DNA of 64,000 nt, from contig JAUJMU010000004.1 in NCBI GenBank assembly GCA_030446715.1, positions 294,931 to 358,930 of the forward strand, in the 5' to 3' direction. This document shows positions 9,130 to 14,654 of this stretch, piece after piece (within the stretch, counting starts at the first letter, position 1; every line of letters starts with the position of its first letter). This stretch comes from Cytophagales bacterium. Lineage in GTDB: Bacteria > Bacteroidota > Bacteroidia > Cytophagales > 172606-1. The position numbers and the translations under genes were made by a program. Below the pieces are notes generated by a model. The model was not told the DNA's origin. It worked only from the letters and a program-made list of their open reading frames with translations, and made no database searches.

Positions 9130-10248
9130 CTAAACGCCGGATTTGTATACTCTTACGTTGAATACAACCCCCTGCAACTTCTTGATCTGGTCACGCCGGT
9201 TAAGCTCTCTGACGTAGTTTTTTCTGGGAAGCATCACCGGAGCCGGCAAAGAGTCGGGTGCAATCTCCTCAATCATCCTCATCAGATACTTGGCCTTCAC
9301 CGCGAAGGCAGTTCCCTCGGCTGCCGTATTCTTGCCGCTGATCACCCCGATCAGATTCCCTGATTCATCCAGCAGCGGGCCACCACTGTTGCCTGGGTTG
9401 ACAGGAATGGAAATCCGGTAGGCGGAGGTATCCCCGTCGAAGCCGCGGTGCGAGCTGATGGAACCATCATTGTACACAAGGTCATCCCCCGGGTAACCCA
9501 GCGTATACACGGGCTCCGCAAGGTCGGCCTCTTTGGTGCTCAGGGCAAATGGCAGCCGTCTGAGCGGCGTGAAACTTCTGTCTTCTATCTTCAGCAGCGC
9601 AAGATCTGCTCCCGGCTCCCGGTGAATCACTTTCACTTTATACCGGTATATACTATCCTGCACGGATTCGATGTACACCGAGTCCGCATCCTTTACGACG
9701 TGGTAGTTGGTGATGATGTAGCCGTTGGGAGAAATCATAAAACCGGTGGCACTGTAGCGGGCAGACCGCATCTCCGGCGCGACCCTGGTGGAAGCCGCAC
9801 TGGAAATTGCCTTGCTGGTTGCCCTCTTAAAGCTGTCAATTTCCCGTTTCAGCTGCCGGTAGTAGGTCGTCTGGCGGTTGTCCAGCGACCGGAGATGGTT
9901 GATTGTCAGAACTGTACTGAGCACAGTGATGAGTGCTACCGATGCAGCTACGGCCATGGTCGGCAGGTATTTTTTCCAGAACACGCGGAGGCTGTACCGG
10001 TCTACTTTGAAGGTAGCCGGCATTTCTACCGCTTCCATTTCGGCGTGGAAAACATCCATTCTGTTCTTCAGCTTCGTTCTGCTGCTGTAAATCCGCAGGC
10101 TGTCGTCCAGCAGGCGCTGCCGGCTGACTTCTTCAGCCAGTCCACCGTCACTGTCCATGGCAAGCTCAAAGGCAATTCTTTCGGACGCAGACAGCCGGCC
10201 GGAAAGGTAATTTTCGATTTGCTCGTATGCCGATGTGTTCGTGTTCAT
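9130..10248 (-). CDS. Membrane anti-sigma-like domain fused to trypsin-like (HtrA-type) serine protease
   Basis: A 372-residue single-pass membrane protein. Residues 1-85 (EQIENYLSGRLSASERIAFE...) resemble the cytoplasmic N-terminal helices of Bacteroidota anti-sigma factors but lack the zinc-binding His/Cys set. Residues ~94-116 form one membrane helix. Residues ~118-150 are a charged, helical linker. Residues ~165-325 are a trypsin-like domain with His183 (TNYHVV), Asp215 (GADLALLK) and Ser288 (NPGNSGGPL), so the catalytic triad is complete. No PDZ domain follows. The gene starts 10 nt after the ECF sigma stop, so the two are co-transcribed. Inferred role: hold the sigma factor at the membrane and release it by periplasm-triggered proteolysis, or act as its effector. 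The fusion, rather than separate proteins, is the unusual point. Confidence 0.85.
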   Translation of the reverse strand: MNTNTSAYEQIENYLSGRLSASERIAFELAMDSDGGLAEEVSRQRLLDDSLRIYSSRTKLKNRMDVFHAEMEAVEMPATFKVDRYSLRVFWKKYLPTMAVAASVALITVLSTVLTINHLRSLDNRQTTYYRQLKREIDSFKRATSKAISSAASTRVAPEMRSARYSATGFMISPNGYIITNYHVVKDADSVYIESVQDSIYRYKVKVIHREPGADLALLKIEDRSFTPLRRLPFALSTKEADLAEPVYTLGYPGDDLVYNDGSISSHRGFDGDTSAYRISIPVNPGNSGGPLLDESGNLIGVISGKNTAAEGTAFAVKAKYLMRMIEEIAPDSLPAPVMLPRKNYVRELNRRDQIKKLQGVVFNVRVYKSGV

Positions 10249-10258
10249 ATGCTGTTGA

Positions 10259-10828
10259 TTAGCTTCCCCGGTACTGGCTGAAGAATATCTTCTTCAGCCG
10301 CATTAAGCACTTATACTTTTGATTCTTGGCATTGTCGACATTGGTGTAGCCCATCTTATCCGTGATCTGCTGCATGGTAAAATCATGGATAAAAAAGTCT
10401 TCCAGTATAGTCCGGCAAGGCTCCCCCAGTTCATCCATGGCTACCTTCATGGTCTTGAACTGCTCGTCTTTATCTTCTGCTTCCGAATCGTCCCTGGTAA
10501 AGGGAATAAAGGATTCAAAATCTTCTATCCGACCTACAAACCGGCTCTTTTGGGCCAGTTTTTTCAGCCATAGGCGCCGGCAAACCGAATAAATATAGGT
10601 TTTTACCTTGCAAGTGAGCTCAAAGTGCTCTTCCTGAGTATGTTCATAGAGTACAATAATGGCTTCCTGATAGATGTCTTTCGCCTCCTGCTCCGTTCCA
10701 CTGTTCTGGGTGATAAAATGGATTACCATCGGGAAATACATTTTATAGAGTGAACCCAGCGCTTGCTGGTCACCACGCTGTATCGCCGACAGTAATTCAC
10801 CTTCTGTATGAAACGCTACCTTATTCAT
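10259..10828 (-). CDS. ECF-type RNA polymerase sigma factor
   Basis: A 189-residue sigma-70 family protein of the extracytoplasmic-function class. The sigma-2 region spans about residues 20-95 (GSLYKMYFPMVIHFI...EAKDIYQEAIIVLYE, with the DIYQE polymerase-binding signature). The sigma-4 region spans about 130-185 (LGEPCRTILEDFFIHDFTMQQITDKMGY, then DNAKNQKYKCLMRLK, the helix-turn-helix). There is no sigma-3 domain. It is co-transcribed with the anti-sigma/protease gene. A GGTTACC-N14-GTATTA element lies 15-41 nt upstream of the start, very like the element before the small lipoproteins on the other strand. This suggests positive autoregulation. Confidence 0.95.
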   Translation of the reverse strand: MNKVAFHTEGELLSAIQRGDQQALGSLYKMYFPMVIHFITQNSGTEQEAKDIYQEAIIVLYEHTQEEHFELTCKVKTYIYSVCRRLWLKKLAQKSRFVGRIEDFESFIPFTRDDSEAEDKDEQFKTMKVAMDELGEPCRTILEDFFIHDFTMQQITDKMGYTNVDNAKNQKYKCLMRLKKIFFSQYRGS

Positions 10829-10842
10829 TCAAGAATTTGTTT

Positions 10843-10869
10843 TAATACCTGTAATGGTGACAGGTAACC
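10843..10869 (-). promoter_or_regulatory. Putative ECF-sigma promoter for the sigma/anti-sigma operon
   Basis: On the minus strand GGTTACC (10869-10863) is followed after exactly 14 nt by GTATTA (10848-10843). The same spacing and boxes occur at 11231-11257 and 11578-11604. A start site about 7 nt downstream would leave a leader of roughly 9 nt before the sigma ATG at 10828. Confidence 0.6.
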
Positions 10870-10963
10870 TGATACTGCCCGAAATTTAATTCATAAATAT
10901 ACGTGTAACCATTTGAATCAGCGTCCGTTACTAATCAACTGAAACCAAACTACTTATAAAGTC

Positions 10964-11174
10964 ATGAAAAAAAATGGCAGCTGTTTGTGCCGTAGTTCTC
11001 GGGACTTACGCATTCAGTGCCTGTGACAATAAAACTGAAAACAGCGACGAAACAGTGGTTGACCGGGATGTGGTAGTTGAATCTGACACTACCGTCCGGG
11101 AGACTGTCATTGAAACCGATACCTCTGTCAGAACCCGTGAGGGCGGATCTGGAACTGATACAATCCGCAGGTAA
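10964..11174 (+). CDS. Small lipoprotein, copy 1 of tandem set (frameshifted in poly-A)
   Basis: Encodes a small Asp/Thr/Val-rich lipoprotein nearly identical to the next gene: SACDNKTE lipobox region, then DETVVDRDVVVESDTT and RETVIETDTS. Directly after the ATG at 10964 there are eight A residues where seven would give MKKMAAVCAVVLGTYAFSAC. As written the signal peptide is out of frame, and only an ATG at 10974 opens the mature part. Either one A is a sequencing error or the tract is a phase-variable switch. The function is unknown. Position next to the ECF sigma gene and similarity to copy 2 suggest an envelope-stress product. Only a degenerate sigma motif (TGTAACC near 10904) lies upstream. 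Confidence 0.7.
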
Positions 11175-11194
11175 ATAATACAAGATTTGGAATT

Positions 11195-11220
11195 GAAAGC
11201 CCTCTTTGGGGGCTTTTTTT
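11195..11220 (+). terminator. Intrinsic terminator after lipoprotein copy 1
   Basis: GAAAGCCC pairs with GGGGGCTTTT around TCTTT and is followed by a run of T residues ending at 11220. It separates copy 1 from copy 2, so the two are independently transcribed. Confidence 0.8.
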
Positions 11221-11230
11221 ATTTTGAGTG

Positions 11231-11257
11231 GGTTACCTTTTTAATTTGAAAGTATAC
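11231..11257 (+). promoter_or_regulatory. Putative ECF-sigma promoter for lipoprotein copy 2
   Basis: GGTTACC (11231-11237), 14-nt spacer, GTATAC (11252-11257). It lies 34 nt before the ATG at 11292 and directly after the upstream terminator. Boxes and spacing agree with the sites at 10843-10869 (minus) and 11578-11604 (plus). Confidence 0.65.
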
Positions 11258-11291
11258 AGGAAGAATTTTAACCTTAAACCTTTACAACGAT

Positions 11292-11501
11292 ATGAAGAAA
11301 CTTCTTTTTATGGGTGCCTTAGTTCTGGGAACTTACGCATTCAGTGCCTGTGACAATAATAAAACTGAAAACGACGAAACAGTGGTTGACCGGGATGTGG
11401 TAGTTGAATCTGACACTACCGTCCGGGAGACCGTCATTGAAACCGATACCTCTGTCAGAACCCGTGAGGCCGGTTCCGGAACCGATACAATCCGTCGCTA
11501 A
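11292..11501 (+). CDS. Small lipoprotein, copy 2 of tandem set
   Basis: A 69-residue lipoprotein: MKKLLFMGALVLGTYAFSAC is a complete signal peptide with lipobox FSAC and the lipidated Cys at residue 20. The mature part has repeated Asp/Thr/Val motifs (DETVVDRDVVVESDTT, RETVIETDTS) and ends in GTDTIRR. It is almost identical to copy 1 over the mature part, so the pair arose by recent tandem duplication. It has its own putative sigma promoter and its own terminator. No known domain is recognised. An acidic, extended lipoprotein next to an ECF sigma gene may be an envelope-stress regulon member (inference). Confidence 0.85.
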   Translation: MKKLLFMGALVLGTYAFSACDNNKTENDETVVDRDVVVESDTTVRETVIETDTSVRTREAGSGTDTIRR

Positions 11502-11527
11502 ACCAGCCTCATTGAATAGTTATACAA

Positions 11528-11555
11528 CTGCCCGGAATCCGGGCAGTTTTTTTTT
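11528..11555 (+). terminator. Intrinsic terminator after lipoprotein copy 2
   Basis: CTGCCCGG (11528-11535) pairs perfectly with CCGGGCAG (11539-11546) around AAT and is followed by nine T residues. This is a textbook rho-independent terminator. Confidence 0.92.
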
Positions 11556-11577
11556 GAAATATTTTGTCCTCTCCCTG

Positions 11578-11604
11578 GGTTACCTGTAAAAATTCAGGGT
11601 ATTG
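11578..11604 (+). promoter_or_regulatory. Putative ECF-sigma promoter for lipoprotein 3
   Basis: GGTTACC (11578-11584), 14-nt spacer, GTATTG (11599-11604), 34 nt before the ATG at 11639. The distance to the start codon equals that of the copy 2 promoter, strengthening the case that the motif is functional. Confidence 0.65.
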
Positions 11605-11638
11605 AACCCGGATTTCAACTTAAACCCAAAAAATTCAG

Positions 11639-13020: not shown

Positions 13021-13043
13021 CACCAAAGTAGTTGTTACTATTT

Positions 13044-14052
13044 AACGTGAGTTATCGAGGTAATTAATTGATAGAGAAACACTTAAAGTTGTAAGAAGTC
13101 CAACACAGTTGCACAAAGAGTAGTTTAAGGAATTGTCACAAACCAAGAAACTACTACAATGAGAACCATACTGGACAGCTTAAAGTTAGTTGAAATCTTC
13201 ATTGCCTGCGATGACTTTTGTAAACAATTCGAGCAGTACTCTATGCAAGAGAACGATGAGCCGCCGAAACAAAGACAGATGAGCGATAGTGAAATGATGA
13301 GCATCCTGATCTTTTACCATCATTCGGGCTTCAACTTCAAGTACTACTATGAACAGATCATTTTAAGAGCCATGCGCAGCTATTGAAAACCCTTATGCCT
13401 ATGCGGCTTTTGTGGCTCAGATACCAAGAGTCAACTTTGTCTTGTTTGCTTTCCTTTCGGCTTGTCGTTTAGCTGCCACTACGGAGGCCAATTACGTTGA
13501 TTCTACCCCCTGGTAGTGGCCCACAACCGCAGAAAACAGAGCAACAAGACCCCGCCAGAACCGGTAAAACCTCTACTGGCTGGTTCTTTGGCTTCAAACT
13601 TCAGCGGTCATTAACCAAAAAGGGCAATTAGTCGTCTTCCGCATCACTACGGCTAATGTAGCCGATAACAACCATGATCTGCTCGAAAAGCTTACTCAAA
13701 AACTCAAAGGCTTTCTCTACGGAGACAAAGGGTATCTGACCGGGTCGCCAGACTCAGGGAAAGAGGAGGAAATCGTAACCAAATACCGAAAACAATGGGA
13801 CTGCAAGCAATCACTTACAAGAAAAACTACTATCTCTCCCATCGCGGACTGATTGAAACCGTATTTGACTGTCTCAAAAACCTCTGCGACCTGGATCACT
13901 CCCGGCACCGGAGCCCTTGAACTTTTTATTCTGGTCGGCGCTTATTGCCTATACCTTCTTTGATCAGACCCTTCCATTACCCCTTTCAAAGAACGTATTG
14001 CCCAATCCTGCGAAATTGTAGTTATCTAAGAACCTACTATATAACTCACGTT
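13044..14052 (+). mobile_element. Degenerate IS982-family insertion sequence with terminal repeats and 4-bp target duplication
   Basis: The element is 1009 bp. Its ends are inverted copies of AACGTGAGTTAT (13044-13055 and 14041-14052), flanked on both sides by ATTT (13040-13043, 14053-14056), which fits a 4-bp target-site duplication. The transposase begins at 13159 (MRTILDSLKLVEIFIACDDF) and runs 76 residues to a stop. Later pieces in other frames (VDSTPW, KGFLYGDKGYL, SHRGLIETVFDCLKNLCDLDHSRHRSP) are IS982 transposase motifs, including the end of the catalytic domain. At least four frame breaks show the transposase is dead as written. The clean ends suggest insertion was not ancient, or that some breaks are sequence errors. 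Confidence 0.82.
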
Positions 14053-14056
14053 ATTT

Positions 14057-14654
14057 AAACCGGCAGATTCTGGTTTGAAAAACCGTTCATAACAGAGACT
14101 GCGCCATGCGTGGTTCCCTCCGGTTGGATACTTCCCGCCGGTACGGGTTTATTAAACCCTGCCAGCCAGAATGCTGCTTTCCGTGTGCCCACAGGCAGGC
14201 GCAAGGTCAGGAAAAGAGGCGCGAAATGGAGATGAACCAGCCTTATAGATGAAGTAAGTGGATGTTGACATTTATTCGGTTTTCAAAATAGCTTCAACAA
14301 AGCTTATCTCTTGTTTACAGCAATTTCATATTACCCAATCTTCTTCAGAGCCGCTGGTATAAAAACAGAAAGCTTACCTAGTGGTAAGCCTTCTGTAGTT
14401 AAACAACCCCTGATTGTGATGAGATACTTTTACCAGATCTTTGAAAAGCAAAAGTCATTTTTCAGCTGTAAATGCCATTGTAAGGTATACAGGTAACTCG
14501 TAAGAAATCGTGTATTCGACAAATCTTCCTGCCGGTACTACCAATGGCATTCTGCCAGTGTCTAACCAAACTCACAGGGGAGTAAAAAAAGAATTTAAAA
14601 AAGAGGAGGATACAAACCACTTTGCGCCAGGGCTGGTGGAAAGTGACTATGCTG
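14057..14654. other. Gene-poor stretch right of the IS element
   Basis: About 600 nt without a convincing coding region on either strand. The part next to the IS can be joined in frame to the PepSY-remnant side if the IS and one ATTT are removed. It is therefore probably the other half of the interrupted locus, but it is too degraded to assign. Confidence 0.4.

Follow-up and report, generated by a model that had tools for sequence, protein, structure and literature searches.

A conserved two-block element as the probable promoter of an ECF sigma factor regulon with small lipoproteins in Cytophagales

The window analyzed here, the whole stretch of 64,000 nucleotides, carries an ECF sigma factor gene, the gene for a predicted membrane protease next to it and, on the opposite strand, two small lipoprotein genes. 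The same pair of short sequence blocks stands in front of the sigma gene and of each lipoprotein gene, which raises the question of whether these boxes are promoters read by the neighboring sigma factor and, if so, which genes belong to its regulon.

Boxes in the window and in the source genome

A preliminary description of the locus had reported GGTTACC-N14-GTAT at three sites, with 34 nt between the box and the ATG of both lipoprotein genes, and the sequence bears out both statements. Exact matches, with the reported spacing, lie at 10845-10869 (minus strand), 11231-11255 (plus strand), and 11578-11602 (plus strand); the ATGs at 11292 and 11639 are each 34 nt from GTATAC and GTATTG, respectively, and the sigma ATG at 10828 is 14 nt from GTATTA. 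A fourth match, with one mismatch (9474-9498), falls within the gene downstream of the sigma gene. In dinucleotide-shuffled versions of the window, matches with at most one mismatch numbered 0.55 on average, and four were reached in 1 of 100 shuffles. The source genome (6.43 Mb) contains nine exact GGTTACC-N14-GTAT sites, three of them in the window. For the extended form GGTTAC-N15-GTATNNA, there are six sites, three again in the window, and none for the reversed control; of the other three, one precedes a gene for a DUF4349 lipoprotein, another falls within a 682-amino-acid open frame, and the third is without an evident target. GGTTAC-N15-GTATTAA with at most one mismatch occurs at nine genome sites, versus one for the control.

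The sigma protein scored 69 bits against TIGR02937 (sigma70-ECF; cut-off, 42.9) over residues 23 to 180 of 189, and among the Pfam models Sigma70_r2 was above its cut-off and Sigma70_r4 below. By the cut-off of the ECF superfamily, it is predicted to be an ECF (group IV) sigma-70 factor. A loose search of the source genome returned 48 candidate sigma relatives, 3 of them with E values of 1e-20 or better. The leader of the sigma mRNA would be very short, since the box is placed such that only 13 nt separate GTATTAA from the ATG. The features of the locus are listed in Table 1.

Table 1. Genes and boxes of the locus, with positions in the window
Feature	Position	Strand	Evidence
Fused probable anti-sigma/membrane helix/HtrA-DegS-type serine protease, 372 aa	9130..10248	-	Trypsin_2, predicted structure
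ECF sigma factor gene, 189 aa	10259..10828	-	TIGR02937, Pfam Sigma70_r2
Probable promoter box GGTTAC-N15-GTATTAA, sigma operon	10842..10869	-	Window and genome motif scans, relatives
Third, degenerate lipoprotein copy	10964..11174	+	89% identity to lipoprotein 1 over 189 nt
Probable promoter box GGTTAC-N15-GTATACA, lipoprotein 1	11231..11258	+	Motif scans
Small lipoprotein 1, 69 aa	11292..11501	+	Lipobox FSAC; PG1828-family model, 32.1 bits (cut-off 50)
Probable promoter box GGTTAC-N15-GTATTGA, lipoprotein 2	11578..11605	+	Motif scans
Small lipoprotein 2, 60 aa	11639..11821	+	Lipobox FAAC; PG1828-family model, 31.1 bits (cut-off 50)

Three things go beyond the preliminary description, namely, the degenerate third lipoprotein copy, a longer conserved element (GGGTTAC-N15-GTATTAA), and the DUF4349 site. 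In the third copy, the ATG at 10964 is out of frame with the remainder through an A-run; its upstream box is degraded, and a search for an intact one at 10964-11174 found none. The copy is either a decaying duplicate or a gene with a phase-variable start. By eye, an insertion sequence remnant with a broken transposase-like frame (13040-14060; no Pfam match for its first fragment) adjoins the regulon.

Conservation of the element and its sites across the order

Seven of eight sampled genomes of the family hold an orthologue of the sigma factor; their seven upstream regions have GGTTAC-N15-GTATWAA in common, and every other column varies. A set from named genomes comprised the best 80 of 473 loci, selected as close relatives of the sigma factor and, by name, mostly from Cytophagales and Sphingobacteriales; many are from Hymenobacter or Spirosoma, so they are not independent. 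Of these best 80 of 473, 69 show an exact box no more than 200 nt ahead of the sigma gene; in 7 others the spacer is 16 nt long, and in 4 the -10 block deviates at one position. If a single mismatch or additional spacer base is tolerated, a box precedes the sigma gene in 80/80. Markov-shuffled upstream regions of the same loci give 0.02 of 80. An unbiased count of 4-mer pairs at gaps of 8 to 25, run on the upstream regions of the best 80 of 473, ranked the GGTTAC-N15-GTATTAA element first. The logo reads GGGTTAC, fifteen positions with weak or no conservation, and GTATTAA, and the box is better written GGGTTAC-N15-GTATTAA. Chance origin of the boxes was ruled out by the shuffles, the reversed control, and the upstream-region statistics.

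A second set, found through the fused protein, consists of 29 loci of the order with a sigma gene (L141 to L170 without L160). When only the 15-nt spacer was scored, 19 of the 29 had the exact box, 5 had one mismatch, and 5 (L156, L161, L166, L167, and L169) had no box within two mismatches. Across the phylum, the fused protein was found at an E value of 1e-40 or better in 35 of 395 genomes. These belong to the order or to two other families of its class (f23 and f24), except for six from outside the class, whose matches are partial and cover the protease part. The exact box is present at 10/10 f23 loci and 6/13 f24 loci; among the seven f24 loci without it, one has a 16-nt spacer and two have one mismatch. 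Upstream of 23 paralogous ECF loci, the full exact box was found in none.

Four of these paralogous loci (L048, L049, L050, and L059) carry GGTTAC 35 to 40 nt before the gene, with another block, ..CAT or ..CAC, downstream of it. By itself, the -35 block may thus not be specific, as if the -10 block might separate related ECF sigma factors.

We scored the module (105 rows at an E value of 4.8e-63 or better plus a weaker row, G191, at 7.9e-43) as present in 86 of the 241 genomes sampled from the order. The preliminary description had named an equal frequency of the motif at random places as the observation that would speak against a regulon, and we found the opposite: exact GGTTAC-N15-GTATTAA occurs 107 times in the 86 module genomes and 22 times in the 155 module-less genomes, a density per genome eight to nine times higher with the module. 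A reversed control gave 46 sites over the 241 genomes, 13 of them in module genomes. Of the 107 sites, 66 lie within 2.5 kb of the module and 41 elsewhere. Leaving out G191 lowers the count to 105 sites (65 near the module and 40 distal) in 85 genomes, versus 24 in 156, with 19 of 38 distal sites before lipoprotein genes.

The 41 distal places represent 39 distinct 28-mers, 19 of which precede lipoprotein genes and 20 of which are followed by none. Among the module-less places, 20 of 22 were examined (one G039 site and the G178 site, which has the same letters as G186, were left out), and a lipoprotein gene was called behind 1 of the 20; this single case does not look like a lipoprotein and is spurious. 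The 19 distal lipoprotein sites are followed, after 31 to 96 nt, by the ATG of a lipobox protein, and 16 of the 19 proteins are 58 to 122 amino acids long. Nineteen distal lipoprotein ORFs face with the box, and two, both poor ORFs, face against it. Nearer to the module, a tiny lipoprotein gene (45 to 130 amino acids, at most 1.5 kb from the sigma start) with its own exact box is present at 49 of the 80 named loci (best 80 of 473), and at these loci 53 of 115 candidate ORFs are boxed, compared with 2 when every other spacing between 8 and 23 is pooled (best 80 of 473).

Of the 8 sampled family genomes, 7 yielded the DUF4349 lipoprotein gene, each time with the exact box. The gene is interrupted by a stop in G004, and in G001 a palindromic stretch separates box and gene (about 235 nt). 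At L292 (about 1262-1498), the DUF4349 gene and its box are separated by a palindromic, MITE-like stretch that, by eye, has a short direct repeat on either side. In three genomes of one family, the box stands 100 to 176 nt before DUF2062-like genes (L222, L223, and L224; domain checked for one). In four genomes of family f15, it stands 40 to 42 nt before genes that encode long secreted proteins and lie about 4 kb away from the module (L214, L215, L196, and L250), so the regulon output may have shifted in that lineage. The preliminary view of a dedicated lipoprotein output was right in kind and too narrow, since DUF4349 lipoproteins and, in a few of the genomes, DUF2062 and secreted proteins are also boxed. 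Its reading of the locus as an ECF sigma regulon is strongly supported by the conservation of the box before the sigma gene and by the association of module and box.

The element, then, consists of two conserved, asymmetric blocks with a fixed, unconserved spacer of 15 (16) nt, usually one per gene and oriented toward that gene. We consider it highly probable that the boxes are the -35 and -10 blocks of a promoter of the neighboring ECF sigma factor, which would transcribe its own operon and a regulon of small lipoproteins. If the element were instead the operator of a dimeric transcription factor and no ECF promoter, its core would be TAC-N15-GTA, a 3-bp inverted repeat; TAC...GTA is indeed contained in GGTTAC-N15-GTATTA, and an operator next to its own regulator would be conserved as well. 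However, the blocks differ outside TAC/GTA (GGG versus TAA), where both are near-invariant, the box points toward the gene, and divergent genes mostly have one box each. A symmetric operator was rejected on this asymmetry, the orientation, and the separate boxes of divergent genes. Moreover, no regulator other than the ECF sigma factor recurs in all 80 loci (best 80 of 473), and position and spacing fit -35 and -10 blocks, making an operator very improbable. It is also very improbable that the boxes are genuine promoters of a different ECF sigma factor, the neighbor being a bystander or one of several sharing the motif. Such sharing is hinted at by GGTTAC before the four paralogues with a different -10-like block, by the 48 candidate sigma relatives in the genome (3 at 1e-20 or better), and by overlapping ECF regulons, which the available part of a study of Flavobacterium psychrophilum discusses (PMC9723704). 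Against it stand the eight- to ninefold denser sites in genomes with the module, the lack of the full element in all 23 paralogues, and the box before the sigma gene in 80/80 loci (best 80 of 473) with at most one mismatch or extra base.

The fused membrane protease and the small lipoproteins

The gene for the fused protein starts 10 nt after the sigma gene, and a fused protease gene is the next gene after the sigma gene in 80/80 named loci (best 80 of 473). The protein contains a Trypsin_2 domain (Pfam; E, 7.7e-27), and its predicted structure (mean pLDDT, 86) consists of three N-terminal helices, a long helix with the membrane segment, and the protease domain. Compared with HtrA1 and a PDZ-deleted DegS, the protease domain gave VIA Z scores of about 20, at 2.6-3.4 Å over 165-169 residues, and the triad His183, Asp215, and Ser288 is invariant across 41 relatives. 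Pfam found no PDZ domain in the fused protein, and the protease alignment ends at residue 334 of 372, with 38 residues left. Judged from the model, the protein is predicted to be a membrane-anchored protease of the HtrA fold with a His-Asp-Ser triad. With 56.6 bits against a cut-off of 422.95 for the DegS family model, and with no PDZ domain found, membership in the DegS family was rejected.

Folded alone, the N-terminal domain forms helices H3-16, H21-33, and H35-74, followed by the membrane helix. Eight of 15 Foldseek matches came from entries for sigma/anti-sigma complexes, four kinds in all (RslA, RsiW, MucA, and the SigK partner), in which the matched chains are presumably the anti-sigma chains; all matches are weak (best E, 2.9). 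The highest VIA Z score, 6.3 (4.3 Å over 70 residues, against an RsiW entry), is at a level that may reflect just a common arrangement. No Pfam model matched the N-terminal domain of the window protein; its relatives gave weak, scattered matches, with zf-HC2 in 5/29 (best E, 4e-4), and a PDB sequence search with the domain profile returned nothing relevant (best E, 0.48). The model NF052375, named "antisigma," matched five of seven members of the fused protein (best E, 4.4e-7) and gave 14.9 bits for the window protein (cut-off, 100), and none of the curated anti-sigma models scored above its cut-off on the fused protein. At 9 of the 80 loci (best 80 of 473), eight of the nine being Spirosoma by name or close to it, the match to the fused-protein profile begins at residue 33-43, suggesting that the N-terminal domain is diverged or shorter there.

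Because the gene next to the sigma gene encodes a PDZ-less protease of the DegS/HtrA type preceded by a membrane helix and by a helical N-terminal domain weakly similar to anti-sigma domains, an anti-sigma factor and a sensor protease are probably united in one chain. The low similarity of the N-terminal domain and the curated anti-sigma models, all below their cut-offs, would also suit an ordinary membrane HtrA protease that came into the operon by chance, with the sigma factor controlled otherwise, for example, by its own abundance. We think this unlikely in view of the linkage to the sigma gene at 80/80 named loci (best 80 of 473), the NF052375 matches in five of seven members, even with the window protein below the cut-off, and the pattern of three helices followed by a membrane helix, for which 8 of 15 structure matches came from sigma/anti-sigma entries.

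For the lipoproteins, D-S/T-A/L/V/I/M/T is described as the O-glycosylation motif of Bacteroidota in the available part of a review (PMC12871550). We counted this sequon in 51 distinct boxed lipoproteins (one with masked letters was left out), which after the signal are 34% threonine and 20% alanine. Each of the 51 has at least one sequon, and together they have 147, compared with 43.9 expected from composition-preserving shuffles (standard deviation, 5.6; maximum, 60), counts that are inflated by the relatedness of the lipoproteins. An excess was also seen in 62 unboxed candidate ORFs (72 sequons versus 23.8 expected), which include lipoproteins of the same look as the boxed ones; the excess is therefore not tied to the box. 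For the two window lipoproteins, the count is 5 sequons versus 1.8 expected (shuffle maximum, 6), which is not significant alone. From their sequences, the boxed lipoproteins are probably O-glycosylated.

Proposed circuit and comparison with known systems

In the ECF paradigm, a sigma factor recognizes its promoter, an anti-sigma factor sequesters the sigma factor, and proteolysis releases it. We infer recognition of the box by the neighboring sigma factor, positive autoregulation, sigma specificity, proteolytic signaling, and glycosylation; for recognition, sequestration by the N-terminal domain, and proteolytic release, this paradigm is the basis. With its helical N-terminal domain, the fused protein would keep the sigma factor at the membrane. 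A signal from the envelope would act on, or through, the periplasmic HtrA-type protease domain, and proteolysis, possibly of the fused protein's own kind, would free the sigma factor, the anti-sigma factor and a site-1-like protease being the same chain. With both in one chain, the sensor may cut itself or its membrane neighbors; alternatively, the protease domain may be a signal-binding domain. The freed sigma factor would raise its own level and drive production of the tiny, disordered-looking, sequon-rich lipoproteins, which are probably O-glycosylated and would act at the outer membrane or in the periplasm. Since the sigma factor, its partner, and the tiny lipoproteins share a promoter signal, and since this arrangement is kept in many relatives, the module looks like an envelope-sensing circuit with a small lipoprotein output. 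Tentatively, and with a low degree of confidence, one could go further: a single-polypeptide sensor (anti-sigma domain, membrane helix, and PDZ-less HtrA domain) might rule an ECF regulon in Cytophagales, Sphingobacteriales, and further Bacteroidia whose main product is a mucin-like, O-glycosylated coat of tiny disordered lipoproteins, possibly feeding back as substrate or ligand, so that the circuit would gauge lipoprotein export or glycosylation.

ECF autoregulons are a long known kind of circuit; what looks different here are the fusion, the lack of a PDZ domain, the promoter, and the output. In the SigmaE-RseA-DegS pathway of Escherichia coli, an ECF sigma factor is controlled by a membrane-spanning anti-sigma factor and an HtrA-type periplasmic protease, with autoregulation and envelope targets, and the C-terminal PDZ domain of DegS senses unassembled porins. 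The module resembles this pathway in its ECF sigma factor, probable membrane anti-sigma factor, HtrA-type protease, and envelope targets. It differs in that the probable anti-sigma factor and the protease are one polypeptide in which no PDZ domain was found, that its output is rich in tiny lipoproteins, and that its promoter is unlike the familiar SigmaE type.

Closer by phylum are the Das/Dma systems of Bacteroides thetaiotaomicron, which, in the available part of their description, pair an ECF21 sigma factor with a dual membrane-spanning anti-sigma factor, Das1/Dma1 acting through nigD1 (PMC13088901); the NigD group consists of lipoproteins according to NCBIfam. As in the module with its probable anti-sigma factor, a Bacteroidota ECF sigma factor stands there beside a large membrane anti-sigma factor with an elaborate extracytoplasmic part, but Dma, as far as that description goes, has a disordered tether and a C-terminal beta-barrel in place of the protease, and the available part names no promoter element (PMC13088901). 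Assignment to ECF21 and the Dma anti-sigma family was rejected, the C-terminal domain here being an HtrA-type protease. In Porphyromonas gingivalis, PG1827 is an ECF sigma factor according to the part of the source available (PMC9862357), and the locus numbers suggest that its gene and the gene for the small lipoprotein PG1828 are neighbors. The window lipoproteins match the PG1828 family (NF050142) weakly, at 32.1 and 31.1 bits, and membership was rejected with both below the cut-off of 50. For SM6 of F. psychrophilum, the part of the study at hand gives an ECF promoter with a CGT -10 box and T9SS genes among the targets (PMC9723704); a Bacteroidota ECF promoter motif and a sigma/anti-sigma pair in the regulon are common to both systems, whereas GTATTAA and tiny lipoproteins are found here. 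Searches, incomplete in coverage, of the literature on ECF promoters, anti-sigma/protease fusions, and ECF classification, and of that on DUF4349 with a sigma factor, PG1827/PG1828, and O-glycosylation, returned no description of the module, and the available part of a B. thetaiotaomicron regulon paper (PMC12596196) contains nothing on it.

The analysis provides a defined promoter element, a probable sigma factor, and a regulon for a module that 86 of the 241 sampled genomes of the order carry and that recurs in two more families of the class. The fused sensor would unite two steps that are run by separate proteins in the textbook SigmaE pathway, and a single catalytic-serine mutant would suffice to probe regulated proteolysis. 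The purpose of the general O-glycosylation system of Bacteroidota is mostly unknown, according to the available part of a review (PMC12871550), and the conserved tiny lipoproteins, packed with sequons, offer a lead to the purpose of this system in the phylum.
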